Virus record (IMG/VR): IMGVR_UViG_3300031565_000223
Span: 1-31,487 of that record
Source of the DNA: a virus
DNA length: 31,487 nt
Reading direction: 5' to 3' (one strand)
The position numbers and the translations under genes are program-made. A model generated the notes under the pieces. The model saw nothing but the letters and a program-made list of their open reading frames with translations. It had not been told where the DNA came from and made no database searches. Every line of letters starts with the position of its first letter. Position 1 is the stretch's first letter. This document shows positions 5,391-29,960 of the stretch, piece after piece.

Positions 5391-5399
5391 TCGAACAGG

Positions 5400-12791: not shown

Positions 12792-12825
12792 AACAAGCTG
12801 CTTTAGCTGGACTTCATGGATTCCT

Positions 12826-13515: not shown

Positions 13516-13518
13516 TTT

Positions 13519-14109
13519 ATGAATAAGCAACTCGAAGCGAATACCAAAAAGCTACTGAGCATCGCAGCCCGTATATCTAAAGAGAATCCTATTCTCGGGT
13601 ACGATCTCGAATGCGCCACTCGATCGTTTGTCGCGGGCAAAGACCTGAGGATGCAAAGTGAATGGGCTGATTATGCTCAAAACGTTGAGAAAATCAGAGA
13701 AGAACTTGACAAGATCTTGAAGAGCAAGCCTGGTGATGAAAAAATCATTGAGTTTCTTGATGGGATCGATGGTGAAGTTGAAAAAGTAAAAATTTCGTCT
13801 TCGCGAATCGCGTCAGATGATTCCCCAGAAGCGTTGTGGGCGGCTTGGGAAGTGCAGTGGAAAGAGTTGAAGAAAAAAGCAGATGATGCTAAATGGTTAA
13901 AGGAAAATGGCTCTGAAGCACTACTGGCAGAAATTGACGCGCTTCATAAAGGTCTTGACGACGTTATTGAGCTGGGTACTGAAGATATTGAGCAGATTCA
14001 GACCTCTTCCGTTAACAAGCGGAGATTATCTTCGTTGATCCGTTTCGCTAACGCGATTCCAAACTCTCGCCAGAAATTGCTTCCTATAATCAAGAAGATG
14101 CTCGGGTAG
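13519..14109 (+). CDS. helical head-region protein sharing two motifs with the 9899-12229 protein
   Basis: This 196-residue, almost wholly helical protein starts at ATG 13519 with GGAG 6 bases before it. Residues 10-37 (KLLSIAARISKENPILGYDL) resemble FLRIASELKNTNPIAALDI of the large Lys-rich protein. The C-terminal residues 164-196 (LSSLIRFANAIPNSRQKLLP) resemble LARLALYIPDTRSILLP of the same protein. A short SSSRIASD segment lies between. The shared ends suggest both are targeted to the same place or partner during head assembly. The gene ends four bases from the end of the convergent gene on the other strand. Confidence 0.6.
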   Translation: MNKQLEANTKKLLSIAARISKENPILGYDLECATRSFVAGKDLRMQSEWADYAQNVEKIREELDKILKSKPGDEKIIEFLDGIDGEVEKVKISSSRIASDDSPEALWAAWEVQWKELKKKADDAKWLKENGSEALLAEIDALHKGLDDVIELGTEDIEQIQTSSVNKRRLSSLIRFANAIPNSRQKLLPIIKKMLG

Positions 14110-14706: not shown

Positions 14707-17454
14707 ATGGGATTTCGACGCACCGCTAATGCCATAGTCTCTCGACCTGGCGTTGAATTTGATGAGTGGATGGACACGCTTCGCGCTCAAAATGAGGGTG
14801 CGGTACCGCGTGACCATATAAATCGTGTAGCCAAGACTGTTTTACGCAAGTGTGATCCGAAGCAGTATCTTCTTTCACATGCCACCATTGTGGCTTCTGT
14901 TGATACATATGCTCCAAGAAATGTGAAAACTGGGCGCTCGATGAACCAGGGCATTCAGATTGATGTGCGCTGGCCGGATTTTCGCATCAAGCCTGAGTGT
15001 CATGAAATCATCAATAATAACGGCGACGCATGGGAGCGTTCGCTGTTGTTATCAACATATCGTACATTCATCGGTGCCCATAATTATCTTGAACACATTC
15101 AGCTTCCTGCCCTGTCGAAGGGATTTATTGTCGATGCGATCGCTCGTGATCTTGGTAAATCAGCTTACATCGATATCCTTGTTGCCACGGACCGAAAACA
15201 TGGTCAATTAGTTGCGGATATTTTAGCTGGTGAAATCCAAGCCATGTCGATGGGCTGCCATATTCCTGGAACGCAGGTGTATCTCTCCGACGGTAGTCCG
15301 ATCAGTATTGAAGATGTTCGTCCAAATATGGAGGTTCTGACTCAGAAGGGAAACTCCTGTCGGGTCGAAAATCTTCAAATTCGTGAAAATAGATGGAAAG
15401 TCCAGACCATTAAATCAGTCGGTCTTCCATCCATTACATCGACAGACAATCACAACTATTACATAATTCGTTGCGAGACTGTGGAAAAGACCCGAGGTCG
15501 TGGAGGAAAGAATTCTAAACTCCATGTCGTGGAGAAGGACTATCCATTTGATTATGCAGAAGCCCGGACCGTTCGGGAAGGTGACTTCCTCGCTTTCCCC
15601 ATTTCACAGGACGAAGTCCAGTCTGATGTGACTCTATCCGAGGCTCGTCTGCTTGGTCTTTGGATCGGAGATGGGTGGAAGTTCGAGAACAACCATGACT
15701 CCACGATTGGTGTTGGATTTTGCCTAGATGAATCTCACCCCGAAATCGTTCAGGAAGCGATTCAAGCGTTAGACCAAGTTGCTTGGGTGAATCGAGAGCT
15801 TCATGTTGCCATGGGAGGTAACGCTCCTCGGCCTCAGAGCACTTCCGTGTCCAACAGGCGCGGGGCGTCATACCTCATGAATACTTCTCGCTCCTTCCGG
15901 GCGATCGTGGATCGTCATACTTCTGGGAGGACATCATCCGATAAGCTCATCGGGAAATCGGTCATGTCTTGGCCGAAAGACCATCAAATGGCATTCCTTT
16001 CCGGTCTTATAGACTCGGACGGATGTGTTTCGACCAGTAAGCGTGGGACTAAGAATGTTTTTCTTAGCACTAGGAATTTAAAGCTCGCGCATCAATACAT
16101 GCAGATTGCAGCTCGATGTGGCATCATTCCCACTTTCTCAGTTGCAGAACGCAGTGGCACGAAAATGTTGCCTGAGGCAACCGGGACTGATTACCAAATC
16201 AAGCTCCGGAACTCAGATGTTGTTCGAGTTCCGTCCTTGAAGGTTCGTGCAGCTATCGATGGGATTCGGCCCACTAGGGCCGGACGCAATAGTCGATGGA
16301 TTACCGATAAATATATTTATTCTAAAGTTAAGAAAATTGATCGATCTGACTATGCAGGGTTTGTATATGACCTTCAGGTTGACCAAGATCATTCATATGT
16401 GGCGAATGGTGTTGGGGTTTCTAATTGCATCAGCCTTTTTACTGTTTGCAATCGTTGTGGCAACGTAGCCTCTGATGATTCCCAGCTCTGTCCGTGTGTT
16501 TTATACCTTGGTAAGGGTAGCAAATTTGCGGATGATCAGGGTAATGAGCATCCTTTAGCTGAGCTCATTGGTCACGTATCTGTTCCGAATTCGAATCAGT
16601 TCATTGAAGCATCGTGGGTTCGAAACCCGGCTTTCCGTGGCGCAGTTCGTCGGAATATTTTAAATCCTGATGAGTCTAAAATAGCTTCTCAACTTTCTGA
16701 GGCTCATCGGGCGAGAGCATCTCGCGTTATTCCTACGTCTGGAATGAAAAAAGCCGCATCTCGTCGTTTTGCTCAACAAGGCGATGATGAATCGAGTCAA
16801 GATATGGATCTTGATGAACTTCTCGGCCAAGACCAAGGCGGTGGCCAAGATCAGGGTGGCCAAGATCAGGGTGGCCAAGATCAGGGTGGCCAAGATCAGG
16901 GTGGCCAAGATCAGAGTGGCCAAGATGGTCCAGATGAGCCTAAAGCTGACAAAATTGATGAAATGCTCGAGAAGGTTCAAGAGCAACTGTTATCAATATT
17001 AGTTGATAAGCTTGGCGAAAAACTTGAACCGAAACCCGAAGATGTCGGGTCCGTAACCGCTCCCAATCTCATGAGTGGGAATGATAATCTGATACGCTCT
17101 TCAGATGACTTTGACCGGCGTGTACGCCGAATCTTCCCTGAAGCCCGCACTCTTCATAGATGGGCTTCAAGAACATATCGGATTGTCCATGAAGGTGGTC
17201 TGAGAGCTGTTAGAGCTTCTAAATTGACTTCTAAAGATTTGATAGTCCTTTCATGGATTGAAGATCGCGTACGGGGAAGAAACTATTCCTCTCGTTTATA
17301 TAAGACTGCGATGAGAGTAGGATCAATGACGAATTTTCCCAGCGAGACTTCATTTCTTGCCGCATGCAGAATGAAGACTGGCCGGGTTCTTTCCCCCAGT
17401 GAGGAACGGTTCTTCACGTGGAAGGGACGGATTGCTTCCGTCTCCGGACTTTAA
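14707..17454 (+). CDS. prohead maturation protease precursor containing an intein
   Basis: This 915-residue precursor splices to a mature protein of about 525 residues. The N-extein (1-183) contains the prohead-protease core: INNNGDAWERSLLL, then GAHNYLEH with candidate catalytic H130, then KSAYIDILVATDRKHG. It ends in AMSMG, where S181 is the candidate nucleophile. The C-extein resumes with C574 as CISLFTVCNRCGN...LCPC, a Cys-rich ribbon usual after this serine in proteases of large phages, then GHVSVPNSNQFIEASWVRNPAF. Such proteases cleave scaffold and head proteins before DNA packaging. The C-terminal part is a Gln/Gly/Asp tandem-repeat linker (about 712-742), an acidic helix and a basic helical tail ending in RIASVSGL. 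The start has only a weak upstream GGTG. Confidence 0.9.
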   Translation: MGFRRTANAIVSRPGVEFDEWMDTLRAQNEGAVPRDHINRVAKTVLRKCDPKQYLLSHATIVASVDTYAPRNVKTGRSMNQGIQIDVRWPDFRIKPECHEIINNNGDAWERSLLLSTYRTFIGAHNYLEHIQLPALSKGFIVDAIARDLGKSAYIDILVATDRKHGQLVADILAGEIQAMSMGCHIPGTQVYLSDGSPISIEDVRPNMEVLTQKGNSCRVENLQIRENRWKVQTIKSVGLPSITSTDNHNYYIIRCETVEKTRGRGGKNSKLHVVEKDYPFDYAEARTVREGDFLAFPISQDEVQSDVTLSEARLLGLWIGDGWKFENNHDSTIGVGFCLDESHPEIVQEAIQALDQVAWVNRELHVAMGGNAPRPQSTSVSNRRGASYLMNTSRSFRAIVDRHTSGRTSSDKLIGKSVMSWPKDHQMAFLSGLIDSDGCVSTSKRGTKNVFLSTRNLKLAHQYMQIAARCGIIPTFSVAERSGTKMLPEATGTDYQIKLRNSDVVRVPSLKVRAAIDGIRPTRAGRNSRWITDKYIYSKVKKIDRSDYAGFVYDLQVDQDHSYVANGVGVSNCISLFTVCNRCGNVASDDSQLCPCVLYLGKGSKFADDQGNEHPLAELIGHVSVPNSNQFIEASWVRNPAFRGAVRRNILNPDESKIASQLSEAHRARASRVIPTSGMKKAASRRFAQQGDDESSQDMDLDELLGQDQGGGQDQGGQDQGGQDQGGQDQGGQDQSGQDGPDEPKADKIDEMLEKVQEQLLSILVDKLGEKLEPKPEDVGSVTAPNLMSGNDNLIRSSDDFDRRVRRIFPEARTLHRWASRTYRIVHEGGLRAVRASKLTSKDLIVLSWIEDRVRGRNYSSRLYKTAMRVGSMTNFPSETSFLAACRMKTGRVLSPSEERFFTWKGRIASVSGL
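15256..16425 (+). mobile_element. LAGLIDADG-type intein inside the protease (residues 184-573)
   Basis: The intein starts at C184 (CHIPGTQVYLSDG, block A) and ends at N573 in HSYVANGVGVSN (blocks F and G), followed by Cys as the +1 extein residue. A TSTDNHNYY segment fits block B. The usual penultimate His is Ser here; the block F His is present at 562. Two DOD endonuclease motifs occur: LLGLWIGDG at 315-323 and LSGLIDSDG at 431-439. The intein is therefore full-length (390 residues), and both splicing and homing activities appear intact. It lies three residues after the presumed catalytic serine S181, a highly conserved site that suits a homing target. Confidence 0.93.
16840..16929 (+). repeat. 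15-bp tandem repeat encoding Gly-Gly-Gln-Asp-Gln
   Basis: Five perfect copies of ggtggccaagatcag (16840-16914) are followed by one diverged copy. They encode a flexible, acidic, Gln-rich linker after the protease core. Near-identical DNA units imply recent expansion and likely copy-number variation between relatives. Confidence 0.9.
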
Positions 17455-17494: not shown

Positions 17495-18685
17495 ATGCGA
17501 GCTCGATCCACCTGGCAGAAGAATAGCGATACACCGCGTCAGGCGGCGACTTCGCGTAAGGCTGACATCTATACCATGAACCAGGACCATCCGCAGCCGA
17601 CTCCGGTCGACTACGTGAATGGTGATCCTGACTCCTGGGCGGAGACTCCTGTCTCCGGGGATAAGATGTCCGTCAATGCTGAATATGACGGTGCACAGGT
17701 CAAGCGCAATGAACTCGGATTTGGCGAGTTTCGCGATGACACCTTTAAGCACAAAGACTCTGACCAGTGGAATGGTAAGGGTAAGTATGACAACACTAAG
17801 GTAGCTGCTGAGCGCAAGGCTAGTGCTTGCGAGCGGTTGGCTCGGGCGACACTTCGGACTGCCAATTCGCAGCTCATTGAGGGTGCCGCAATTGACTTTA
17901 TGGCGCTGCCAGACAGGTCGATCGTTGCCATGCTGAAGCGTCTTGACGCTGTTTCTCCTGATGCGCTACCGCAGCAGGCTAAGTTTAAACGCGCCTTAGC
18001 TTGTACCAAGCTTGCGGCTCGTTTACTCGGCTCTGCGGCCAACTCGGATAACGTTGAGAGGCTTGGATCAGTCATGATGACGATTGATGATCCTACTCTC
18101 AAGTCAATGGTCCGTACCATTGCTTCTGCTCGCGTGGCTGAAGGCCAGCAAGAAGAGCAGCAGGATGACGATGGACAGGTCGCTGGACAGGGCGACGACC
18201 AGCAGGATGATGATGATCAGCAGCAGCAAGAGTCCCATGGTCTCAATCCGAATGAGCAGGCCATGTTGAGTGATATGCTGTCGGAAGAAGGCGGCGGCGC
18301 TGGCGCTGCATGTCCTCCTTGCCCGCCCGGTGCGCCCGGTGCGCCCGGTGCGCCCGGTGCAGCACAGCCTATGGATGATCTCTCTGCATTATTCAGCGGC
18401 GCTCCTCAGGGTGCTCCTCCTGGCGAGATTTCGTTTGATGGTGACGACGATGTTGCTCCTACACAGACGAGCATGGCGTCTGATCTGGATGCTATCTTTG
18501 CTGATGACCCTGAAGTTCAGGCTCAACGTCAAATCGCTTCAGCTCGGTCTGAAGCTATGGGTCGAGATAGTTTCACTGGTCGAGTCGCTTCGGCTAATAA
18601 TGGTGCGAAAAAGCTCGGCACCGTTAAGAAGTCTGCGTCTACATCAGTGGACCAGGTTCTCGAGACTCTCTGGGAGAGACCATAA
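17495..18685 (+). CDS. putative scaffold or prohead core protein
   Basis: ATG 17495 is chosen because AGGAGG (17478-17483) lies 11 bases before it; a TTG 9 bases further upstream is unlikely. The 396-residue product has an N-terminal polar region and a helical middle rich in Ala/Arg/Leu. Then come an acidic Gln/Asp-rich stretch (about residues 210-245) and a short collagen-like GAPGAPGAPG run (about 275-287). An acidic region and a basic Ala/Ser-rich end follow. Position between the maturation protease and capsid genes, low complexity and lack of catalytic motifs suit a scaffold cleaved during maturation. Candidate processing segments include QRQIASARS and TGRVASANN. The function is inferred, not shown. 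Confidence 0.6.
   Translation: MRARSTWQKNSDTPRQAATSRKADIYTMNQDHPQPTPVDYVNGDPDSWAETPVSGDKMSVNAEYDGAQVKRNELGFGEFRDDTFKHKDSDQWNGKGKYDNTKVAAERKASACERLARATLRTANSQLIEGAAIDFMALPDRSIVAMLKRLDAVSPDALPQQAKFKRALACTKLAARLLGSAANSDNVERLGSVMMTIDDPTLKSMVRTIASARVAEGQQEEQQDDDGQVAGQGDDQQDDDDQQQQESHGLNPNEQAMLSDMLSEEGGGAGAACPPCPPGAPGAPGAPGAAQPMDDLSALFSGAPQGAPPGEISFDGDDDVAPTQTSMASDLDAIFADDPEVQAQRQIASARSEAMGRDSFTGRVASANNGAKKLGTVKKSASTSVDQVLETLWERP
18324..18359 (+). repeat. four perfect 9-bp repeats encoding collagen-like Gly-Ala-Pro
   Basis: The unit cgcccggtg occurs four times in tandem. It encodes the GAP triplets of the scaffold-like protein. The run is too short to form a stable collagen helix alone and is probably a linker. 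Confidence 0.85.
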
Positions 18686-20483: not shown

Positions 20484-20520
20484 ACATTCTGAAGCCCCTT
20501 TGAGGCTTTCCTGAGCCTCC

Positions 20521-20560
20521 CATCGACCCTCGTCGGATTAATTTCTGACGAGGGTCGATG
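20521..20560 (+). terminator. perfect 14-bp hairpin after the capsid gene
   Basis: CATCGACCCTCGTC (20521-20534) pairs exactly with 20547-20560 around a 12-base loop, 37 bases after the capsid stop. An AT-rich stretch (agtatttatat) follows but no pure T-tract. It is a likely transcript end or 3' stabilising structure. A weaker AAGCC/GGCTT stem precedes it at 20492-20508. Confidence 0.65.
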
Positions 20561-20591
20561 AGTATTTATATCTTGGAGTTGTGTGGAGTTC

Positions 20592-20620
20592 TTGCATGTT
20601 TGAGTTCATCATGTTAGAAT
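20592..20620 (+). promoter_or_regulatory. sigma70-like promoter giving a leaderless HNH-methyltransferase mRNA
   Basis: TTGCAT (20592-20597) and TAGAAT (20615-20620) are spaced by 17 bases. The ATG at 20627 is the seventh base after the -10 box, exactly where transcription should begin. There is no Shine-Dalgarno before the ATG. Confidence 0.55.
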
Positions 20621-20626
20621 GGCCTA

Positions 20627-22249
20627 ATGCCACAATGCCGTATTCATGGTGAACTACCCGAAACGTCCTTCTCGAAACGAGCTACAGGATATATTCCTCC
20701 GGTTTGTAAACAATGTGAGCGAGATAGCGCTCGTGAAAATCGAAAAGCGAGATATCAAGATCCTACAACTCGGGGTCTGATCCGATCTCAGAATAAATCG
20801 TGGCAACAAAATAATTCGGGTTATCTCTCTGATAAGTTCAAGAAAAAATATTCCTCCGATGAAGTATTTCGGAATCGGATTTTGGATAGAGTATCCTTAT
20901 ATAAAACCGACCCACAAGCTCACAGGTTAAAACGGGAACGAGCCGCGACATACTTCCAACAAAACAAAAGTAAAATTTATGAACGAATACAAGCCAAACA
21001 AGCCAAATATCCGGAACTGAAATTGCGCGGCGTTATTCGTTCTCGTGTTTGGGGTGCATTGAAACAATCGAAAGGTGGAGATTCTGTACTGAATCACCTT
21101 CCATATTCACTTCAAGATTTGAAGCATTACATCGAGTCAAAATTCGAATCATGGATGACTTGGGATAACTGGGGGCCAGCGTCAAATCAGCGACAGACTT
21201 GGCAAATTGACCACATTATCCCTCAGTCAATGTTTCCGTATGAATCCATGGGCTCGGATAATTTTCTTCTTTGTTGGTCCTTGAATAATCTTCGCCCTCT
21301 GGAATCGAAAAGAAATTTCACCGAAGGGAATCGTTCTGACTCATTTAATGGGTGTGAGACATTTTCTCAATTTTTGAGTTATGTTCGTAATACTGGGTAT
21401 GTGTCTGGAGTTATCGATCCGTCATATGAACGATTGAGTTTAATGAATGTTGATGATACGCTTCCTCAGCCGTTTGACGGTCTTTCATATCTTGACTCAC
21501 TTTTCCCACATAGATTCAATTCTCGTTCCGGTCAAAATCGTTCATTTATTGATTTTTGGAATGATGATCTTGAAATTCTTCGTGTTGTTGCTTATGTTGT
21601 GGCTGATGGACGTATTCCCACTCCAAAAATTATATCTACGAATGTCAAATTTAATTCATCACTCCCCGCCCATTTCTATCCGTCCGCAGCTTCGGCTCTC
21701 GTACGGAAGTATGCTTCTGGTGGAGATGTAATTGATCCATTTCTTGGGTGGGGTGGTCGAACGCTCGGAGCTCTTTGTGGCGGAGCGAAATCGATTTGTG
21801 GAACGGACTTGCAGTCCGAGTCGGTCGATGGCTGTCGTCGTTTGGTGGATGACTACGCAAAAATCCGTCTGGTGGACTCGGAATTTACCTGTCAAGATTT
21901 CGCGACATACTTACAAAACACCGAACGTCGTTTCGATTTGTTGATGACGAGTCCACCCTTCATGGCGACTGAAGACTACGGAGTGAAAGGGCACTCTGAC
22001 GTTCGTTCCTGGTCAGAACAGATCGTCCAGCCATTGGTGCGCGGCGCGTTGCGTGTCGTCAAATCCGGTGGTCATATAGCCATTCATGGGCAAGATCGTC
22101 GCAATATGCCGGTTTTGACAACTCTTTTGACAGCTTTCACGGCTGCTGGAATGGAGAAAGTTGCGGAATACCGATACGGGAAGACCGCAGGGCAGTCCGT
22201 TGTTGTATTCCTGAGGACTGGGAAGAACATAAGTACCTATTCAGTATAA
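20627..22249 (+). CDS. HNH endonuclease fused to a DNA methyltransferase
   Basis: This 540-residue fusion has three parts. Residues 4-30 hold a probable zinc finger (C4-x-x-H7-G...C27-x-x-C30). Residues 125-240 hold an HNH nuclease: IDHIIPQ with D195 and H196, then SLNNLRPLESKRN. Residues 285-535 form a class I amino-methyltransferase: AdoMet motif I as DPFLGWGGRTLGA (370-382) and catalytic motif IV TSPPF (441-445), which is typical of N4-cytosine or N6-adenine enzymes. It lies directly after the major capsid gene, has its own apparent promoter and is probably a mobile element. The methyltransferase may protect the cut site, making a one-polypeptide restriction-modification-like homing enzyme. 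Free-standing HNH enzymes are usual in phages; the fusion is the unusual part. Specificity cannot be read from sequence. Confidence 0.88.
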   Translation: MPQCRIHGELPETSFSKRATGYIPPVCKQCERDSARENRKARYQDPTTRGLIRSQNKSWQQNNSGYLSDKFKKKYSSDEVFRNRILDRVSLYKTDPQAHRLKRERAATYFQQNKSKIYERIQAKQAKYPELKLRGVIRSRVWGALKQSKGGDSVLNHLPYSLQDLKHYIESKFESWMTWDNWGPASNQRQTWQIDHIIPQSMFPYESMGSDNFLLCWSLNNLRPLESKRNFTEGNRSDSFNGCETFSQFLSYVRNTGYVSGVIDPSYERLSLMNVDDTLPQPFDGLSYLDSLFPHRFNSRSGQNRSFIDFWNDDLEILRVVAYVVADGRIPTPKIISTNVKFNSSLPAHFYPSAASALVRKYASGGDVIDPFLGWGGRTLGALCGGAKSICGTDLQSESVDGCRRLVDDYAKIRLVDSEFTCQDFATYLQNTERRFDLLMTSPPFMATEDYGVKGHSDVRSWSEQIVQPLVRGALRVVKSGGHIAIHGQDRRNMPVLTTLLTAFTAAGMEKVAEYRYGKTAGQSVVVFLRTGKNISTYSV

Positions 22250-22272
22250 TACCTATATAATATAGGTGATTG

Positions 22273-22294
22273 TTGGCTACGTTTTGGCTACGTT
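22273..22294 (+). repeat. two tandem 11-bp repeats upstream of the operators
   Basis: TTGGCTACGTT occurs at 22273-22283 and again at 22284-22294. The spacing is one helical turn and lies about 10 bases before the first operator palindrome, so a regulator binding site is possible. Confidence 0.5.
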
Positions 22295-22304
22295 TAAAAA
22301 CCTA

Positions 22305-22343
22305 CTTGACATACTGTCAAGAGAATCTTGACATGCTGTCAAG
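22305..22343 (+). promoter_or_regulatory. two tandem palindromic operators
   Basis: The palindrome CTTGACA-N3-TGTCAAG occurs at 22305-22321 and 22327-22343, both followed by AGAAT, with a 22-base period (about two helical turns). The second palindrome contains the -35 box of the promoter. A dimeric repressor bound here would block RNA polymerase and could bind both sites on one face of the DNA. Confidence 0.75.
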
Positions 22344-22356
22344 AGAATGCTATAAT
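22328..22356 (+). promoter_or_regulatory. perfect-consensus sigma70 promoter
   Basis: TTGACA (22328-22333), a 17-base spacer and TATAAT (22351-22356) match the bacterial housekeeping consensus exactly. A start near 22363 would give a leader of about 68 bases before ATG 22431. It is the strongest promoter in the window. Confidence 0.85.
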
Positions 22357-22430
22357 ACCTGTTAATCGGGAAGGGTTAGGTCCTTGACTTAACGCTCTAA
22401 CCGAAGACGCAAACCCATCTGGAGAGTAAA

Positions 22431-22880
22431 ATGTCTGAAAAACGTAAACCCGAACAGCAGCACTTGCCTCTGAATTCTAATCCTGGTCTCCTTTCAGAAG
22501 ATAAGCGCAAATGGTGCGCGAGCTCATGGAATAAGCGTGCTCTAAAACAGCCTCGAATTGCCGTATTTCATTATGCGATGAATTCAACGCCCCGGCCTAC
22601 GGCTCCTGATGAGACTATTGCTTACGGTTTTATGACCTTGAATAAATTTCATGATCGAGAACCAGAGGCCATTAGGAAAACGATTGAGGCACTCGACCCT
22701 GAATGGTTTGACTCCTACCCTAAAAAAGAAGGAACAGATTTTGATGATAGTTTTAAGAAAGCTGTTATCGGTGAGCTCGCTCGAGCCTTTTACCGACATG
22801 GTTTGGCTGCGTATGGAAAACCTGGTTTGCGTAAATCGGAAAGTGATGAGGTAACTAACTCACCGCTCGCAGCCCTTTAA
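22431..22880 (+). CDS. unknown protein expressed from the operator-controlled promoter
   Basis: This 149-residue protein has a good GGAG site 6 bases before ATG 22431. The N-terminus is basic and polar (MSEKRKPEQQ). The middle holds aromatic-rich segments (RIAVFHYAMN, TIAYGFMTLNKF), and the C-terminal half looks helical (KKAVIGELARAFYRHGLAAYG). There is no cysteine cluster, signal peptide or recognisable helix-turn-helix. It is the single gene between a perfect repressible promoter and a 16-bp hairpin, so it is a self-contained, tightly regulated unit. An early or host-takeover role is plausible but unproven. Confidence 0.7.
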   Translation: MSEKRKPEQQHLPLNSNPGLLSEDKRKWCASSWNKRALKQPRIAVFHYAMNSTPRPTAPDETIAYGFMTLNKFHDREPEAIRKTIEALDPEWFDSYPKKEGTDFDDSFKKAVIGELARAFYRHGLAAYGKPGLRKSESDEVTNSPLAAL

Positions 22881-22894
22881 GTATAGTATTCCGG

Positions 22895-22938
22895 TATTTT
22901 CCGACCCTAGTTTTTGTTATGTCTAGGGTCGGAAAATA
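22895..22938 (+). terminator. perfect 16-bp hairpin
   Basis: The arms at 22895-22910 and 22923-22938 (core CCGACCCTAG / CTAGGGTCGG with flanking A/T pairs) pair without mismatch around a 12-base loop. It begins 14 bases after the stop of the preceding gene. The lower stem is TATTTT/AAAATA, so it could act on either strand. It is a probable terminator of the operator-controlled unit. Confidence 0.7.
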
Positions 22939-22961
22939 TACGTTTAACTGTAAGGTAAATT

Positions 22962-23186
22962 ATGTTGGAACGAGGTCGATGGGGTCGTGGTAAGCCACAC
23001 ACGGCAGATGAACAGCTGCTAGTTCCTGCCAAAATTCTTGGACTCAAGGGCGACAACCCGACGCTCTACATGAAAGGCAAGCTCAAGCACGTTGAGCATG
23101 CAACTCTCGATTTCCCCAACTGGGTGAAAGTGATTCGTAATGCCGAAGTGGGCGGAGCTACTGCAGGAGCAACCTGGGTCGATTGA
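22962..23186 (+). CDS. small protein of unknown function
   Basis: This 74-residue protein starts at ATG 22962 after an AAGG at 8-9 bases. It is compact and probably beta-rich in its centre (TLYMKGKLKHVEHATLDFP), with a Gly/Ala/Thr-rich end. There is no cysteine and no membrane segment. It stands between a strong hairpin and a convergent reverse-strand gene, with three bases to the latter. No family is recognised. Confidence 0.6.
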   Translation: MLERGRWGRGKPHTADEQLLVPAKILGLKGDNPTLYMKGKLKHVEHATLDFPNWVKVIRNAEVGGATAGATWVD

Positions 23187-23189
23187 TAC

Positions 23190-23573
23190 TTATATAAGGG
23201 GCAAATTCCCCGTAATAGGCTGAAGCTTTTCTGTAGTATCCGGTCCGAAAGCGGCACAGGTGAGTGTCTGCACGCCATGAAATTCGGTTAGTCCCGCGTC
23301 ATATACGGGATGAACTGTCACATCGTGTCGTCCGGCTCTCTCAATCAGTTCCAATAGTGCATCTTCAGATGTCACTGATACGACGATTTTCTTGAACGTA
23401 CCTTGTAACCAAATTTTTTGCTCTTGCGTGATTTTTCGGGTGAAGGTTCCCGACTCGCTGATTTCGGCACTCTTTACAAGAAACATCATGGAGGCATGTG
23501 CGGCTTGAGCCGCAATTTTGCCTTTACGCATGTTGAGGTCTTTCCTCACCACTATGACTTGTTTTAAATCCAT
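23190..23573 (-). CDS. pth2: peptidyl-tRNA hydrolase, Pth2 family
   Basis: ATG 23573 is chosen because it lies 13 bases after the preceding gene's stop; a TTG at 23612 would overlap that gene. The 127-residue product begins MDLKQVIVVRKDLNMRKGKI and continues AAQAAHAS, the signature of Pth2 enzymes, which release tRNA from stalled peptidyl-tRNA. The C-terminal part, YDAGLTEFHG...TLTCAAFGP and PITGNLPLI, fits the family's second half, and length is near the usual 115-125 residues. Pth2 is the archaeal and eukaryotic type; most bacteria rely on the unrelated Pth1, so a phage copy is notable. It would act in the cytoplasm, perhaps recycling tRNA during heavy late translation or under host tRNA-directed defence. 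Confidence 0.88.
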   Translation of the reverse strand: MDLKQVIVVRKDLNMRKGKIAAQAAHASMMFLVKSAEISESGTFTRKITQEQKIWLQGTFKKIVVSVTSEDALLELIERAGRHDVTVHPVYDAGLTEFHGVQTLTCAAFGPDTTEKLQPITGNLPLI

Positions 23574-23586
23574 GTAGTTCGATGTA

Positions 23587-23847
23587 TTAACGTCGTTTAC
23601 ATTTTGCGTCAAAAGACAGTTTAAGCTTCCGAATCGCTAAATCAGCGAAATATGCGTCATCGCCTATTTCGTATGGCTCTATTCTTAGTGTTCCGAGTTC
23701 GTCCGAAGTGAGTTTAGATAGGGCATCCCTAGTCTCATCGCCTGCGGATTGAACTACGGCTCCCGGTAGCCTTCCGGGACCATGTTTGAAACGGTTGGCG
23801 ATAAAGGATAACCCTATGGTATGCTGTAATGCTTCTAGTGGTTTCAT
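23587..23847 (-). CDS. small protein of unknown function upstream of pth2
   Basis: This 86-residue protein starts with MKPLEALQHTIG at 23847 and is read toward pth2 in the same transcript, with 13 bases between its stop and the pth2 start. It contains an acidic middle (SAGDETRDALSKLTSDELG) and a basic end (KCKRR). No domain is recognised. The pairing with pth2 suggests a joint function or simple co-expression. Confidence 0.6.
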   Translation of the reverse strand: MKPLEALQHTIGLSFIANRFKHGPGRLPGAVVQSAGDETRDALSKLTSDELGTLRIEPYEIGDDAYFADLAIRKLKLSFDAKCKRR

Positions 23848-23899
23848 AACTTGTATGTAACTTTACACTTACCGTAGGTTATACTGAAGTTATGGACTC

Positions 23900-23927
23900 T
23901 TGACCTACATTGTAATATATGTATGGA
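23900..23927 (+). promoter_or_regulatory. weak candidate promoter for the lipoprotein gene
   Basis: TTGACC (23900-23905) and TATGGA (23922-23927) are spaced by 16 bases in the divergent region. The -35 box is good and the -10 box is poor, so this is tentative. Confidence 0.3.
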
Positions 23928-23990
23928 ATATTCTTCGTAAATGTTTCGGGGCTTCGTGTATATCCTTTTGTCTTTAACCTGGAGTTCTTT

Positions 23991-25370
23991 ATGGGAAAAA
24001 TTTCAAATATTCTGTTTATCTTTGGTCTGACTTTCGTATTTGCGTGTGGTGAAAATAAGACTCAACCCGAGTCAAACGTAGCGGTTGTTAACCCGCCTGA
24101 TGACTCAACTGCTGATCCCGGCCTACCTGAAGATGCCGGTTCTGGCACAGCCGGTTCTGGCACAGCCGGTTCTGGCACAGCCGGTACGGATGGCGGTGAA
24201 GCTGGTACTGGCGGTGAAGCTGGTACTGGCGGAACCGGCATGGAACCCGCCTCTGTTTGTGCTTGTAGTGGCACCAACTGCGCGATGTGTGGAAACGTTT
24301 GTGTTGACCTCGATACGGATCCGAAGAATTGCGGAGCATGTGGCTATGCGGTGGTGAACGGAAGAATGTGTTCGGATGGCGCTCCGAGCCCTGCTTGGCA
24401 GCCCATTTCCACTAATGGTGGCGCTCCTCTGCCTCGAACTGGACATGCTGCAGCTTACCTTGACGGACTTACTTCTCCGTCCGTAGATGGTGCTTTTGTT
24501 GTATCTGGTGGTTCAGATACTGTTGGTGGTCTGGCAACTAATATGATCGGTATTTATTATCCGACGTGGGATAGGTGGTCAATCGGCAGGCCCTGGCTTG
24601 GTACTGCACGCTGTCATCACGGGTCTGTTGCTTCTCGTGATAATGTTTATATTTTCGGTGGCCTTTCTGACTGTTCTAAGGATTCAAGCGTCGTCTCTAC
24701 TGATCTAGAAGTTCAAGATCGTGCAACGCTCATTTCCATGTTTCCAAAGTGGAGCTCTATTTCGGGTGTTGGTGTTGGTGTTCCCGGGCCTCGTTATAAC
24801 TTTGCACATATTTGGACGGGGATGGGTATTTTCGTTTACGGCGGGTCTGATTCTAATTCGTTGCCGCTGTCAACTGGTGCGATGTTTGATCCAGTTAGTT
24901 CAACTTGGGTTGATGCAGACTGCGCTCTTCCTGATTGCGCTCGGTCCGGTAATATGAGTGCGTTCATGAACCATGCTACCAGATCTGTAAATTTGTTTGG
25001 TGGAAGTAAGATTAACGGTCTTGATTATGTACCTATTGTTAATAATGGGTCAATTCCTCTTTCTCCAATCGGTTGGTACACACTTCCGGTTCCTAACGGC
25101 ACTCCCGATCCGTTACCGAAGCGTCATGCTGATTCTATCCACAGAGTCTTCTACCTCACGTCTGAAGATTGTTCAAGCCCTTCCGTGTTGATTTATGATA
25201 AGAAAAATGAGATGTGGTCTTCTGACACGTCTCCGACTCCTCCAGGCCTTGTTGCTGAAGCAGTGGTTGCATGGACCGGAGCTGAAATGCTTGCCTGGTC
25301 AGGTGCTTGTGGAAATTCTGCTCCGGTTTCCATCGGAGGTCGTTATCAGCCTCCCGCTTATATCCCTTGA
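23991..25370 (+). CDS. lipoprotein with Myxococcota-type Cys-rich motif and kelch-like propeller
   Basis: ATG 23991 is chosen because GGAG lies 6 bases before it and a lipoprotein signal follows at once: MGKISN, a hydrophobic stretch, then VFAC with lipidated Cys at 19. A Gly/Ser/Thr/Ala repeat linker follows (about residues 45-80). Next is a Cys-rich segment from C90 to about residue 130, including CGNVCVDLDTDPKNCGACG, a pattern I know from secreted and surface proteins of Myxococcota. The rest contains recurrent blade-like motifs (RTGHAAAY, VYIFGG, IFVYGG, VNLFGG) typical of kelch-like beta-propellers. It should be anchored in a host membrane facing outward. Likely host-derived, it could alter the surface and block superinfection, or act during release; no direct evidence favours either. 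Confidence 0.8.
   Translation: MGKISNILFIFGLTFVFACGENKTQPESNVAVVNPPDDSTADPGLPEDAGSGTAGSGTAGSGTAGTDGGEAGTGGEAGTGGTGMEPASVCACSGTNCAMCGNVCVDLDTDPKNCGACGYAVVNGRMCSDGAPSPAWQPISTNGGAPLPRTGHAAAYLDGLTSPSVDGAFVVSGGSDTVGGLATNMIGIYYPTWDRWSIGRPWLGTARCHHGSVASRDNVYIFGGLSDCSKDSSVVSTDLEVQDRATLISMFPKWSSISGVGVGVPGPRYNFAHIWTGMGIFVYGGSDSNSLPLSTGAMFDPVSSTWVDADCALPDCARSGNMSAFMNHATRSVNLFGGSKINGLDYVPIVNNGSIPLSPIGWYTLPVPNGTPDPLPKRHADSIHRVFYLTSEDCSSPSVLIYDKKNEMWSSDTSPTPPGLVAEAVVAWTGAEMLAWSGACGNSAPVSIGGRYQPPAYIP
24136..24180 (+). repeat. three perfect 15-bp coding repeats in the lipoprotein linker
   Basis: The unit ccggttctggcacag occurs three times in tandem and encodes the Gly-Ser-Gly-Thr-Ala linker. Exact identity suggests recent expansion. 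Confidence 0.9.
24192..24227 (+). repeat. two perfect 18-bp coding repeats in the lipoprotein linker
   Basis: The unit ggcggtgaagctggtact occurs twice in tandem and encodes Gly-Gly-Glu-Ala-Gly-Thr. It directly follows the 15-bp repeat array and extends the flexible linker between the lipid anchor and the Cys-rich segment. Confidence 0.85.
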
Positions 25371-25379
25371 TTATTGAAG

Positions 25380-25694
25380 ATGGATTTTTCGTATAAATGC
25401 GACACCAACAGTGGCCTTATGGTCGGCGTGAGGAAACTCAACTATGGTTTATATAGTATTTTAGTTGGTTTCCGAAACGGTAAACGTAAGCCGCCGAATT
25501 ATTATAGGATTGGACTTGTACGTAGTGGTGTCATAGATATGAAATCCATTAAAGAAATTGATGATAGTTGGAGCTTATTTGGTACGGGATATGAGTACTC
25601 ACAGATCATCGATTTGCTTCATTCTGAGTCATTCCTACTTATTCTGAATGATATCAGAAATCACGCAATAATTGATTCAGTGATGATGGAGTAA
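25380..25694 (+). CDS. small protein of unknown function
   Basis: ATG 25380 is preferred over a TTG six bases upstream. The 104-residue product begins MDFSYKCD and alternates short beta-like and charged segments (YGLYSILVGFRNGKRKPPNYYRIG). There is no signal peptide or motif. It starts 9 bases after the lipoprotein stop, so it is probably co-expressed with it, and ends three bases from the convergent gene. Confidence 0.6.
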   Translation: MDFSYKCDTNSGLMVGVRKLNYGLYSILVGFRNGKRKPPNYYRIGLVRSGVIDMKSIKEIDDSWSLFGTGYEYSQIIDLLHSESFLLILNDIRNHAIIDSVMME

Positions 25695-25697
25695 ATT

Positions 25698-26732
25698 TCA
25701 GTGCGGACGTACGGGAGGCTCATCGTCGTAGTATCCGCGTTCGTCATAGTCTCCGAGCATCTCGTTTTCTTGCAGCTCGCGGATATGTTCCGCGTCGTCA
25801 GCTTCGTCGTCTTCCGGACTAGTTCGTGGGTCGTTCATGGAGGCTATTATGCCTCGAATTTCAGCAGCTATCTTGGATCTTGATGGCTGTGTTGATGAAT
25901 CGATTCTAAGGGCAACAAGACGAATCTCGTTTGCAATATCGGAAGGTTTAGAAGATATTGTCATTTTATTTGGGTTGTAAACCAAACCAGCTTCACGTAG
26001 TTTTTCTTGTAGCGCGTTCTTGCTTTGTTTTATCTTTTGTGTCATATTCAAAATTTCATTAAGCCTATTTAGGTCACGAGGGCCAAACACCCCATCATTC
26101 TCTTCTGTTATATATTTAACGAAGTGATCAATAGTTCCGTGCGTATCAATGCCCTCGTCTCTCTCTCCTCTTCTTCTCTCCTCTTCTTTGAGATTCATTT
26201 CATCTAATTGTTTTTGTTTATTTACTCGTTTGGTGACCACTTTTGAAGTGGATAGAGCATTATCTGGAGGCTTCGATACTATATCATCTATTATGGACTG
26301 TGTGACGTTGTTTATGCTTGCTGTGTCCTGTCCTTCGGTAAATGAAGGCTTTCCGTTTTGATCAAACTCTATTTCAAACGTTCCTATGTTTTGATGCCTG
26401 GATAATTCTCCTCCTCCATGTTTGTTTTTGTTGTAGTATGCTCCTGTTAGGTTGGCAGTTACGGAAGTTCCAGGCATCGGTTCGCCCGAAAGTTCACCTT
26501 CTATGTGGATACCTCCGAGAATCCCTTTAGCATCGAAAACTCCAGGTTTTCCTGGAAATGAAAATGTGCGTCCACGAAACCCGAAACTTGGAAGTTCATC
26601 TGTATTACGTACATCCCATGTCCAGTTTATGCCAGCGCTCATGGCTTTTTGAATAATTCCTGCCAGTTCAAGGGCAGTTTTTTGTTCCATTGCAATAATA
26701 CGAGCTGCGACTCTTGATGCGATTATACTCAT
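25698..26732 (-). CDS. protein of unknown function downstream of the 2H phosphoesterase
   Basis: This 344-residue protein starts at ATG 26732 with a GGAAGG site lying inside the end of the preceding gene, so the two are translationally linked. The N-terminus (MSIIASRVAARII) is short, basic and hydrophobic but not a clear signal peptide. Residues 25-140 look beta-rich with Gly and Pro (FSFPGKPGVFDAKGILGG...). Residues 170-200 are highly charged (KEEERRRGERDEG) and probably form a coiled coil or linker, followed by helices. The C-terminal 35 residues are very acidic and Tyr-rich. No family is recognised. Confidence 0.65.
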   Translation of the reverse strand: MSIIASRVAARIIAMEQKTALELAGIIQKAMSAGINWTWDVRNTDELPSFGFRGRTFSFPGKPGVFDAKGILGGIHIEGELSGEPMPGTSVTANLTGAYYNKNKHGGGELSRHQNIGTFEIEFDQNGKPSFTEGQDTASINNVTQSIIDDIVSKPPDNALSTSKVVTKRVNKQKQLDEMNLKEEERRRGERDEGIDTHGTIDHFVKYITEENDGVFGPRDLNRLNEILNMTQKIKQSKNALQEKLREAGLVYNPNKMTISSKPSDIANEIRLVALRIDSSTQPSRSKIAAEIRGIIASMNDPRTSPEDDEADDAEHIRELQENEMLGDYDERGYYDDEPPVRPH

Positions 26733-26734
26733 TT

Positions 26735-27235
26735 TTAACCTTCCAACTCTATCATTGTTACGATTCTATCGGTCATCTCTTCACCACCCCATATCGCTAC
26801 CGACCCGACTTTCCATATGACTGGATCGAATTCTAAATCATCGCATGGATCTTCTGAGTAAGATAGAGTTATGTGTGGTTCAAACTTTGGATACTTTTCG
26901 GAGTATCCAACGTCTGCTTCTTTCATTTGTTTCGTAATCTCGGTTCTAAACTTAGCAATCGTCGGGGACTGAACCCGAGCTATAACCGGGACCCCGCTGT
27001 CCGGGTTCGCTGAGAAACAAGTTCTTGTTGCACATCCGACTAGAAACGGCTTTGTTTTTTGTGCTAAGGCCGCGACTACTGCACCTGCTCTAATCACTTG
27101 CGCTAACGGAGCCATTTTGCCGAGGTATACGAGAGTTATATGCATTTCTTCAGGCTCAGACCGTTCACCGGGAGCCTCTATCATATATAACTCTTGTGCT
27201 ATCTTCTTAGGTACTTTGATGCCTATGAACGCCAC
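26735..27235 (-). CDS. 2H phosphoesterase (LigT / 2'-5' RNA ligase-like)
   Basis: This 166-residue protein starts at GTG 27235. It carries the two signature motifs of 2H phosphoesterases, H32-I-T34-L and H121-I-T123-L-S, placed 89 residues apart as expected, within the usual length range. Members cleave or form 2',3'-cyclic or 2'-5' phosphodiester bonds in RNA or nucleotides. Phage members include enzymes that destroy cyclic nucleotide alarm signals of CBASS defence (Acb1) and possible RNA-repair enzymes. Substrate choice cannot be read from these motifs. It is the first gene of a two-gene reverse-strand unit, divergent from the gene at 27357. Confidence 0.82.
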   Translation of the reverse strand: MAFIGIKVPKKIAQELYMIEAPGERSEPEEMHITLVYLGKMAPLAQVIRAGAVVAALAQKTKPFLVGCATRTCFSANPDSGVPVIARVQSPTIAKFRTEITKQMKEADVGYSEKYPKFEPHITLSYSEDPCDDLEFDPVIWKVGSVAIWGGEEMTDRIVTMIELEG

Positions 27236-27264
27236 ACCCTAGTTATATATCAAAGGGTTACGAC

Positions 27265-27293
27265 TTGATTTTCTATGACTAACATGATTTAAT
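27265..27293 (+). promoter_or_regulatory. weak candidate promoter upstream of the minigenes
   Basis: TTGATT (27265-27270) and TTTAAT (27288-27293) are spaced by 17 bases. It would drive the strong ribosome binding site and the minigenes that follow. The boxes are only moderate matches. Confidence 0.35.
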
Positions 27294-27319
27294 ATGCGTC
27301 GTGCTTCACATTCACCAAA

Positions 27320-27353
27320 GGAGGATCAAATGAGGACTATATAAATGAGGTGA
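27320..27353 (+). other. strong ribosome binding site followed by two minigenes (MRTI and MR)
   Basis: AAAGGAGG ends at 27324, and ATG 27330 follows after 5 bases, an ideal layout. The frame is only ATG AGG ACT ATA TAA (27330-27344). A second ATG begins at once and reads ATG AGG TGA (27345-27353). The real gene starts at GTG 27357, with GAGGTGA just before it. The best ribosome binding site in the region therefore serves a four-codon frame. It may be a leader peptide that couples translation, or a bar-like minigene that traps peptidyl-tRNA. Confidence 0.55.
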
Positions 27354-27356
27354 CTT

Positions 27357-27743
27357 GTGCCTGTAAAAAGAAAACCCGCGCTAACTCGAAGAGTCGAACG
27401 TAGGTATAGGGAAATTCTTGATGGGTGGACCGGGAAAAATTACCAGTGGACACTTTGGGATGGTGAGTATCTTTGTTGGGCAGCATTCCATTTTGCTGAA
27501 CAATGGCATGGTAGAGATATAGATACTTCTCGCCTTGCAAATATTGTTCTTCGGTCAAATGATGCCGAGTGTTGTTATAGATATGCTCGTGAAATTCCCG
27601 GTGCTTCTATTCGAAAATTTCAATATCAAGTTATAAGATATGGGACCGCTGAGTTAATGCGCAGGTTCGCTCGTGAGATACCTGGTGCTGATTGCGCACA
27701 CCTTGAGTGTATGGCAGATATTGCCGATATCATGTATTCGTGA
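27357..27743 (+). CDS. small helical-repeat protein with AREIPGA repeats
   Basis: This 128-residue protein starts at GTG 27357; an in-frame TGA at 27351 excludes any earlier start. AREIPGA occurs at residues 77-83 and 105-111, with a related FAEQWHG segment at 46-52. That is a repeat of about 28 residues, probably helical pairs forming a short solenoid. The N-terminus is basic (PVKRKPALTRRVERRYRE). No catalytic motif is seen. It probably binds protein or RNA. Expression may be governed by the two minigenes in front of it. Confidence 0.65.
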   Translation: MPVKRKPALTRRVERRYREILDGWTGKNYQWTLWDGEYLCWAAFHFAEQWHGRDIDTSRLANIVLRSNDAECCYRYAREIPGASIRKFQYQVIRYGTAELMRRFAREIPGADCAHLECMADIADIMYS

Positions 27744-27802
27744 AAAGTATTATTCGAAAATATAACTGCGACGAGTGTAAATTATGGTGTGGGTAACACT
27801 AT

Positions 27803-28030
27803 ATGATTATCGGTGCCAAGTTTGACGAGGATTTAGCTTTCGTAGTTGAAGCCTGCGGTTTCACTTGGTCTGTGCATCGTTTCCGTAAAGATGGTAAACG
27901 TGGAATGATTGCATTCACGAAAAATGAACTAGTAGGTACGTGGATTATCGGGATGATTAAGCCGGGTGAACTCACGCCAGAACAAGTAATCGCAGAACTG
28001 ACTGAAGGTCACCGGAAAGAATCTAACTAA
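27803..28030 (+). CDS. small protein of unknown function
   Basis: This 75-residue protein starts at ATG 27803 with only a weak GGGTAA before it. It looks like a small alpha/beta fold (MIIGAKFDEDLAFVVEACG, then a basic RFRKDGKRG loop, then ELTPEQVIAELTEGHRKE as a final helix). It has one Cys and no membrane segment. It lies between the repeat protein and the 454-residue gene on the same strand. No family is recognised. Confidence 0.55.
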   Translation: MIIGAKFDEDLAFVVEACGFTWSVHRFRKDGKRGMIAFTKNELVGTWIIGMIKPGELTPEQVIAELTEGHRKESN

Positions 28031-28051
28031 TCAGATCACATATATATATTT

Positions 28052-29416
28052 ATGAGTACACCAGATTCTGTCGCTAATTATCTCTCTGTGATGCAAAGTT
28101 TGTATCATACCGCTAATGCATCTCGAAACAATTCGAAAGTTTCTAGAAAGGCTGAAATAGCTAATCTGCGAAATATGATTCAAAAGCAGATCTCGGAGCT
28201 AGGGTTAATTTCCTCTCCATCTGAGGCTAAAAAGCTTAACTTGATTGAAAAACCTCAAGAAATCTTTACTTCCGATATTCCGAATCTCTTAGAAACTATC
28301 GGTGTCAAGACGCAGACAGTTGATCAAAATTTTCTTCATGCTAGATCCAAAATTTTGGACACACTTGATGGACATAGTAATAAAGAAAAGGCATCGATAC
28401 TCAATGATGTCAACTCACGATATGATAAACTGCAGCAACTAGAAGAGTCACTTGTCGGATTGAACGAAGCTGAATCTCGTATTGACGATGTATCTGAAAA
28501 ACTTACCGTTGCAGAAGCTGAATACAATGATGTGATATCTGAGGTATATCGTCGTGGTTGGGCTCATTTTCGAAATGCTCGAATCATTGACATCCCTAAA
28601 TCTGAGTTTGCGTACGTTCAACGTGCTTTCGAACGCTATGGAAGCAGCACTCCTAGTAAACCTGTTGATGGCGTACCGTACCCTGAACGCGTTCCGTTTT
28701 CTGACATCTATTTTTCTTTCGGCACAGGTATTCCATATGATATTGAAGGAGACAATGCCTTATTGTACGGAATTCTTGTAACCCCTTCTTTGGCTGCCGG
28801 TGTCTTTCGTATAGAAAGGAAAGACAGACCGATCAATCACATACTTCTTGATTGTTGGTATAATGATGGGTTCTGGAGATCTGATTTTTGGATCCCACAT
28901 GCTCAGGCAATGGTTATTTCGCTTGTTGATTTAGTTAACAATTACAGAACATTTGTTCTGGAAGAGGAACCGACTGAATCAACTCGTATTAAATATCGCA
29001 AACTATCAAAGAGTTTCATCGTTAAAAGACCGATTCCGCAACCATATTATACGATTAAGCTTAAATCAAAAACGATTCACTCATCCATGTATCGAACTAT
29101 TCGTAGACTTGCACAGTATTCAATCGAGTATAGCTATCGTTTTGATGTGCGTGGTCACGAACGTTGCAAAGTTCAACGTGGAAAGCTACCGATTGACCCT
29201 AAAAAGTTAAAAACCTTAACTAAACGCGGTTATACTATTTTCGACACTTGCCAACCATCTGAGGAAGTTCAAAAACTTTTGCATTCACGACACATCCCAT
29301 TGCGTAGGTCAGATGAATGGTTGGCTGTTAAAATTTTTTGGGTTTCAGAACATATGAAGGGGCCTGATGGTAAGCCATATGTGCCTGCTGTTCGCATTAT
29401 GGGAGGTGAAAATTAA
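28052..29416 (+). CDS. 454-residue protein of unknown function with coiled-coil N-terminal half
   Basis: ATG 28052 follows an AT-rich stretch without a clear Shine-Dalgarno. Residues 1-170 are helical and charged and probably form coiled coils (notably 115-170, LEESLVGLNEAESRIDDVSE). The C-terminal 280 residues look globular, with aromatic-rich strands (YFSFGTGIPYDIEGDNALLYG, CWYNDGFWRSDFW) and a basic region (residues 310-360). No signal peptide or catalytic motif is seen. The next gene starts two bases after its stop, indicating an operon. A structural or DNA-related role is possible, but I do not recognise the family. Confidence 0.65.
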   Translation: MSTPDSVANYLSVMQSLYHTANASRNNSKVSRKAEIANLRNMIQKQISELGLISSPSEAKKLNLIEKPQEIFTSDIPNLLETIGVKTQTVDQNFLHARSKILDTLDGHSNKEKASILNDVNSRYDKLQQLEESLVGLNEAESRIDDVSEKLTVAEAEYNDVISEVYRRGWAHFRNARIIDIPKSEFAYVQRAFERYGSSTPSKPVDGVPYPERVPFSDIYFSFGTGIPYDIEGDNALLYGILVTPSLAAGVFRIERKDRPINHILLDCWYNDGFWRSDFWIPHAQAMVISLVDLVNNYRTFVLEEEPTESTRIKYRKLSKSFIVKRPIPQPYYTIKLKSKTIHSSMYRTIRRLAQYSIEYSYRFDVRGHERCKVQRGKLPIDPKKLKTLTKRGYTIFDTCQPSEEVQKLLHSRHIPLRRSDEWLAVKIFWVSEHMKGPDGKPYVPAVRIMGGEN

Positions 29417-29417
29417 C

Positions 29418-29606
29418 ATGGACCGTTGTAACGTGGAACTTACTGAAGGCGAACTCATTGTGATGAAGATGCTGGTGCGTGGGGATCAAATCCCGATCAA
29501 TCGCAACCGTGTTCTTAACTCGTTACGACGCAAAATCAATGCGATTACGATCAATAGAGTCAAAAGTAAAGAAGTCAAAACTGATGACTCTCTTGTCTCT
29601 CATTAG
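29418..29606 (+). CDS. small protein of unknown function
   Basis: ATG 29418 is chosen because GGGAGG lies in the end of the preceding gene, 12 bases before it; longer starts would overlap that gene. The 62-residue product begins MDRCNVELTEGELIVMKMLV and is basic in its second half (NRVLNSLRRKINAITINRVKSKE). Two helices with a basic second one could bind nucleic acid, but no helix-turn-helix can be claimed. It is translationally coupled to the 454-residue gene. Confidence 0.55.
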   Translation: MDRCNVELTEGELIVMKMLVRGDQIPINRNRVLNSLRRKINAITINRVKSKEVKTDDSLVSH

Positions 29607-29609
29607 AGA

Positions 29610-29891
29610 GTGTTACGAAAGTTACTGACTCGATTTCGTTCTAAAGAATCTAATTTAGAACATTTTGACCCTCCTACCGACGCGGACTTTGAGTACTTCA
29701 AATCTCTGTGTTCCGTATGGCCAGGCGGGTATCATACACGTTTATACATGGAAACGAATGATCCGAAATATATCGGACCTGCGTCAGATGAAATACGACA
29801 ATCTGTTATGTCCTCTTACACTATAGATACTCCTTTAGGTATTGATCATATTGAAATACTTAACAAAATTTCCTACGCGTCTAAACGATAA
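29610..29891 (+). CDS. small protein of unknown function
   Basis: This 93-residue frame starts at GTG 29610, three bases after the previous stop, with a GAG-rich region just before it. The N-terminus is basic (LRKLLTRFRSKES); the remainder is acidic and polar with several Tyr. No domain is seen. Gene spacing suggests it is the third member of the unit beginning at 28052. Confidence 0.5.
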   Translation: MLRKLLTRFRSKESNLEHFDPPTDADFEYFKSLCSVWPGGYHTRLYMETNDPKYIGPASDEIRQSVMSSYTIDTPLGIDHIEILNKISYASKR

Positions 29892-29932
29892 TAATTAATC
29901 TTTTTATAACGATGCGCTCCACTCTTTGGTAT

Positions 29933-29947
29933 TGGTTAATTTAACCA
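29933..29947 (+). promoter_or_regulatory. 15-base palindrome abutting a ribosome binding site
   Basis: TGGTTAA-T-TTAACCA is a perfect palindrome whose right arm runs into the CCAGGAG ribosome binding site of the next gene. It may be an operator or a small hairpin affecting translation; chance is not excluded. Confidence 0.35.
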
Positions 29948-29960
29948 GGAGTTCGACCGC

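Follow-up and report, generated by a model that had tools for sequence, protein, structure and literature searches.

A Cys-rich kelch lipoprotein gene of Myxococcota affinity in the genome of a probable huge phage

Introduction

Phage lipoproteins serving superinfection exclusion exist, and Llp of phage T5 is an example. Kelch propellers are encoded by phiKZ-like jumbo phages such as Noxifer, PhiPA3 and PS119XW, and a family of MXAN_6577-like cysteine-rich proteins is described by the model NF041328. In huge phages, surface proteins have been predicted that may influence the infection of a cell by further phages (PMC7162821). The 31,487-base virus record IMGVR_UViG_3300031565_000223, the whole of which is called the window here, carries a gene which brings elements of these systems together in one protein. 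We class it, from its sequence, as a putative host-derived envelope lipoprotein of huge phages. Titles and opening lines of abstracts retrieved for kelch with phages, for Myxococcota lipoproteins or for kinase with TPR contained nothing on such proteins, nor did those for jumbo or huge phages with a Myxococcota lipoprotein or host prediction, and the word kelch is absent from the text of PMC7824862.

Results

The window encodes a large terminase (phrog_2, E 5e-24), a portal (phrog_16240, E 6e-30) and a major capsid protein (phrog_2522, E 6e-47), besides a head protease (Table 1). The capsid protein shares 76% identity with that of a 485-kb uncultured phage and 93-97% with those of contigs of up to 436 kb. 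Because its capsid relatives sit in genomes and contigs of this size, the window is very probably a part of a huge phage. The nearest named phages by the same protein are Tunturi_5 (45%), whose host phylum we take to be Acidobacteriota, and Bacillus phage G (36%). The kelch lipoprotein gene lies among the phage head genes and follows the major capsid gene at a distance of 3.5 kb. In the window and 17 contigs in which both genes were found, the capsid gene is separated from the conserved gene at 29961 by as little as 187 bases (L068) and as much as 9,477 bases (the window), and the stretch is regarded as a cargo stretch for this reason. The window also encodes a PcfJ-like domain followed by leucine-rich-variant repeats (216-1460, with 78-bp DNA repeats), one protein with weak matches to an HNH nuclease and a DNA/RNA methyltransferase (20627-22249) and a 2H phosphoesterase close to the models of LigT and of the anti-CBASS protein Acb1, the latter just below the cut-off (26735-27235).

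Table 1 Features of the kelch lipoprotein locus in the window
Feature	Position	Strand	Basis or remark
Head protease region	14707-17454		split by an intein that carries a LAGLIDADG domain
Stretch between the capsid gene and the conserved gene at 29961	20484-29960		
PTH2-type peptidyl-tRNA hydrolase	23190-23612	other strand	upstream of the kelch gene
GGAG, possible ribosome-binding site	23981-23984	+	six bases before the start; read from sequence
Cys-rich kelch lipoprotein gene	23991-25370	+	459 aa, stop-free frame
Signal peptide and lipobox	23991-24047	+	predicted lipidation at Cys19 (24045-24047); rule test
Gly/Ala/Thr-rich linker	24048-24251	+	residues 20-87; 18 Gly, 9 Ala and 9 Thr of 68; composition
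15-bp tandem repeat	24135-24185	+	3.4 copies, 100% match
18-bp tandem repeat	24191-24232	+	2.3 copies, 100% match
Cysteine module with CVDLDTDPKNCGACGYAVV..C	24258-24410	+	residues 90-140
Kelch beta-propeller	24393-25367	+	residues about 135-459; GGRYQPPA tail common to the phage copies

A longer in-frame alternative of the gene begins with ATG at 23919; the start at 23991 has the GGAG motif and yields a signal peptide. The lipobox, MGKISNILFIFGLTFVFA followed by C19, fits the rule applied, which is of the PROSITE type, and among all ORF starts of the window (at least 60 aa) that of the kelch gene is the only one passing both this rule and a charge filter. The protein has the charged start, the hydrophobic stretch and the lipobox cysteine by which bacterial lipoproteins are recognized in sequences. 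A promoter search found five sites compared with 4.7 in shuffled sequences, which is no excess. The earlier note had read a lipobox, a linker, a cysteine motif and kelch repeats from this DNA, and all four are present in the gene. It had also called the 15- and 18-bp repeat expansions recent. The repeats are indeed perfect and the linker differs among the phage copies (about 70 residues in two of them and about 15 in one); that the expansion is recent is suggested solely by the perfect identity of the repeats.

The window protein contains one CG-x-CG cysteine module, in which CVDLDTDPKNCGACG occupies residues 104-118. When all six frames of the window were scanned, NCGACG appeared a single time; the other strings of the form CG-x-C were few and unrelated. 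NF041328 matches the module with E 1.3e-6 and 28.3 bits, which does not reach the cut-off of 100 bits, whereas a Myxococcota protein (L189) scores 111.5 bits. The propeller matches PF24681 just over the cut-off (E 1.7e-13, 50.8 bits vs 50) and also exceeds the cut-offs of Kelch_1 and Kelch_3; the kelch protein of the phage contig L003 scores 80.7 bits. The AlphaFold model of residues 84-459, based on seven aligned sequences, is a beta-propeller (pLDDT 75.9, pTM 0.79), in which the cysteine module is not confidently modelled because residues 84-120 are mostly below pLDDT 50. A first run with four full-length sequences was poor (pLDDT 42.8) and was set aside. Foldseek against the PDB gave 533 matches at E<=0.001 with kelch domains on top, and VIA-align superposed the model on the plant specifier protein 5gqt (Z 29.5, rmsd 2.8 over 293 residues) and on LZTR1 (Z 28.8). 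Among the best 50 Foldseek matches in BFVD were models annotated as virion structural protein (Noxifer, Phabio, PhiPA3) and as kelch-like (CBB), which are fold-level matches with 14-18% identity to the window protein.

The kelch gene was found in two of 80 loci around relatives of the capsid gene (32 of which extend at least 6.5 kb behind it), namely L003 and L037. A profile search of 26 whole capsid-sharing records, some of which are fragments, found it in the same two, as did a profile scan of IMG/VR (two of 100 stretches confirmed). When the C-terminal half was used in IMG/VR, four of 15 stretches were confirmed (L003, L037, L198 and L199), and a scan of viral contigs with a cysteine-module profile confirmed one of 41 (L003). 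A single-sequence scan of viral contigs with the window protein was too narrow (none of three confirmed), tblastn of 50,697 phage records gave one weak match (E 0.7) and a search of 72,556 plasmids gave no match. L198 was rejected as a phage relative: it contains an alanyl-tRNA-synthetase-like gene (by eye) and no window genes except kelch, and the contig is bacterial-looking. L199 lies in a 394-kb phage record, and the capsid proteins of this record and of the window are 35% identical. A stretch at about 9920-10120 of L199 combines a signal-peptide-like start with a last blade in a different frame, which ends in GGRYQPPAP; it is a broken remnant of a kelch lipoprotein gene. In L006, whose capsid protein is 95% identical and which has matching genes on the right, no kelch gene lies between these and the capsid gene.

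The L003 copy (569 aa, 84.6-kb contig, part of whose locus recurs in a second contig at 99.9%) and the L037 copy (401 aa from the first start, 196.7-kb contig) occupy the corresponding variable stretch that follows the major capsid gene. The two are divergent, with 36% and 31% identity to the window protein. The reading frame is open in all three copies, and each has retained the lipobox, the propeller and the GGRYQPPA tail; the L003 start is devoid of Lys/Arg near the N-terminus. In L003, a gene for a 212-aa TPR protein with a signal peptide and a membrane segment (read by eye) overlaps the kelch gene by four bases, and no TPR gene adjoins the kelch gene in the window or L037. The L037 gene is flanked by genes for an amidohydrolase (12706-13716, dihydroorotase-like by eye) and a NADAR protein (15704-16312). 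Other lipoprotein-like genes were noticed in phage contigs: L016 (93% capsid identity) encodes, behind the capsid gene, a short Gly/Ser-rich lipoprotein (from 5184-5444 onward) and a 327-aa lipoprotein-like thaumatin-family protein (6167-7150, PF00314, E 4e-15), and L055 encodes a lipoprotein-like tyrosine phosphatase (11651-12181, Y_phosphatase2, E 3.4e-9).

When genomes of all phyla were scanned with the phage profile, 120 pattern matches were obtained, of which a single one was confirmed as a relative, in a Myxococcales MAG (L088). Its gene encodes a lipobox, a linker, two modules and ...CVDLQTDVDNCGACGYRVV...CVAGKPSPAWVPVS, followed by kelch-like sequence cut by the contig end. Genome counts with the phage profile were taken within Myxococcota, where matches were present in at least 17 of 377 genomes (E<=1e-14) and in at least 40 of 144 genomes of one order (E<=1e-10, best 3.5e-30). 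These counts are lower bounds since few candidates were scored per genome (4 in the 377-genome search, 11 in the 144-genome search and 18 in another profile search). NF041328 matched at E<=1e-6 in 140 of 282 Myxococcota genomes (81 over the cut-off) and in none of 14 controls, and many Myxococcota lipoproteins share the domain order lipobox, linker, cysteine module and kelch. These results support the Myxococcota affinity proposed in the earlier note, and the Myxococcota link of the gene is well founded. The note would have been contradicted by closest relatives among phage tail proteins or in another phylum; by sequence, the phage records gave just the one weak match and the plasmids none, and the closest known bacterial relatives are in Myxococcota. 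At the fold level, jumbo-phage kelch proteins annotated as virion structural are among the matches. The kelch part alone is not diagnostic of Myxococcota, because this propeller type also occurs in L198, whose phylum is unassigned. The exact pattern of the phage tail, GGRYQPPA, was found in none of the 377 Myxococcota genomes. Phage and bacterial proteins are only 24-34% identical over longer alignments, and their relation is therefore old.

Eleven bacterial loci were read, ten chosen from the better matches (L186-L195) and L088. A Ser/Thr kinase gene adjoins the kelch gene or lies one gene away in eight of them; no kinase was seen at L193, L194 and L195. A TPR or PEGA protein is encoded between or beside the kinase and kelch genes at L088, L189, L190, L191 and L192, with weak Pfam support (E 0.014 to 6e-6; the cut-off was passed only by PEGA in L189 and L191), and that of L187 is a motif match only. 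In L088, the kinase, TPR/PEGA and kelch genes stand in succession. A Pfam scan of the window locus, which left the small ORF 23587-23847 outside, found no adjoining kinase or TPR/PEGA gene, and the protein encoded downstream of the kelch gene had no Pfam match. PADLOC gave no match for the kelch or TPR proteins; it matched the kinase at L189 to PD-T4-6, which may be generic Ser/Thr-kinase similarity.

A tree built from 41 proteins places the three phage copies on one side of a branch with support 80/90, and they were grouped in 84% of 200 bootstrap trees. This grouping favours one phage kelch family with losses, and repeated capture from similar donors is a possible alternative. L088 is nearest to the phage copies with weak support (57/94) owing to long branches (L184, L185, L088, L133). 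Between the window and L003, the cysteine module is 64% identical (27/42, residues 99-140) and the last blade 62%, whereas the rest of the propeller is 35% identical and the proteins of neighbouring genes are 60-97% identical; the propeller outside the last blade is therefore a fast-evolving and plausibly exposed face. The order of parts in the protein is not due to chance, because it recurs in two other phages and in Myxococcota. The GC content of the window gene (0.497, GC3 0.370) is phage-like compared with 0.57-0.75 in the bacterial loci, so the transfer was not recent or the donor differs.

Discussion

We consider it fairly likely that this gene of a probable huge phage has its origin in the Cys-rich kelch lipoprotein family of Myxococcota and acts in the host envelope. 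It was probably taken from a host, and its product may alter the surface of the infected cell. The protein would be produced while the phage infects the cell; after export and cleavage it would receive a lipid at Cys19 and be held in the outer membrane, where the linker would lift the disulphide-bonded cysteine module and the propeller off the membrane. The propeller may cover or occupy a receptor or stand in for a host paralogue. The most likely effect, which we propose tentatively, is that the changed cell surface makes other phages adsorb less or disturbs the envelope sensing of the host. The envelope role is preferred because the gene is not universal in the lineage, does not resemble known virion parts in its sequence and has the construction of a surface lipoprotein of the host.

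The location near head genes and the jumbo-phage models among the best BFVD matches could also indicate a kelch protein of the virion or tail which binds the host surface, as the phiKZ-like virion structural kelch-fold proteins might. We regard this as improbable, since these proteins match at the fold level only and none of them was found by tblastn in the phage records, the lipobox, the linker and the cysteine module speak for an envelope lipoprotein, and the search of the 26 capsid-sharing records (some of them fragments) did not find the gene in 24, which would be unusual for a needed virion part. Its patchy presence, its absence from the close relative L006 and the broken remnant in L199 would all suit a passenger gene of little effect, which came from the host and drifts in the variable cargo stretch. 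However, the intact features in three copies as divergent as 31-36% suggest selection over a long divergence, and this explanation seems rather unlikely to us. Somewhat less likely still, huge phages may have captured the TPR and kelch half of a widespread Myxococcota kinase-TPR-kelch sensor as a decoy or dominant-negative form, with the propeller diversifying in an arms race; a Myxococcota surface sensor would then be silenced or rewired during infection. A kinase-TPR-kelch envelope locus recurs in Myxococcota and no paper on it was found among the titles and abstract openings, and if phages carry parts of the locus, one can test what it does in phage entry or defence.

We hold with some confidence that the host of the phage is a member of Myxococcota, as the earlier note had gathered from the gene. 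The affinity of the gene stood up, and the host remains a suggestion: when 20 kb of the window, behind its first 11,487 bases, were compared with the 377 Myxococcota genomes, no spacer was found. The strongest matches fell in tandem repeats (window 18324-18360 and the kelch linker) or low-complexity coding DNA, and a few in the cysteine-motif DNA (24299-24350). It is doubtful that the host lies outside Myxococcota and the gene arrived by a different route or was taken from another phylum, although the similar kelch repeats in L198 and the hosts of the nearest named capsid relatives (presumably Acidobacteriota for Tunturi_5 and Bacillus for phage G) would fit this. The only confirmed genome match is the Myxococcales MAG, the TPR-kelch pairing is common to the L003 phage and Myxococcota, and NF041328 was missing from all controls. 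Through this concrete gene, a lineage of huge phages that had no assigned host is linked to Myxococcota.

Among known systems, the kelch-fold proteins of phiKZ-like jumbo phages resemble the window protein in their propeller and in belonging to jumbo phages, but several of them are annotated as virion structural and tblastn gave no sequence match between them and the window protein. T5 Llp is a lipoprotein which a phage makes and which acts in the envelope of its host, as the window protein would; the latter is far larger and bears a propeller, and exclusion is only putative for it. The cysteine module is shared with the NF041328 family, although the window protein has one module only and scores below the cut-off. 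The Myxococcota kelch lipoproteins (L113-L116, L172-L176, L189, L088) are mostly larger, often have several Cys modules and have a kinase neighbour which is missing in the window. In common with the phage protein, they have a lipobox and a low-complexity linker, a CG-x-CG module leading directly into the kelch propeller and a last blade of the form W-T-G-x-E...GxRYxP.
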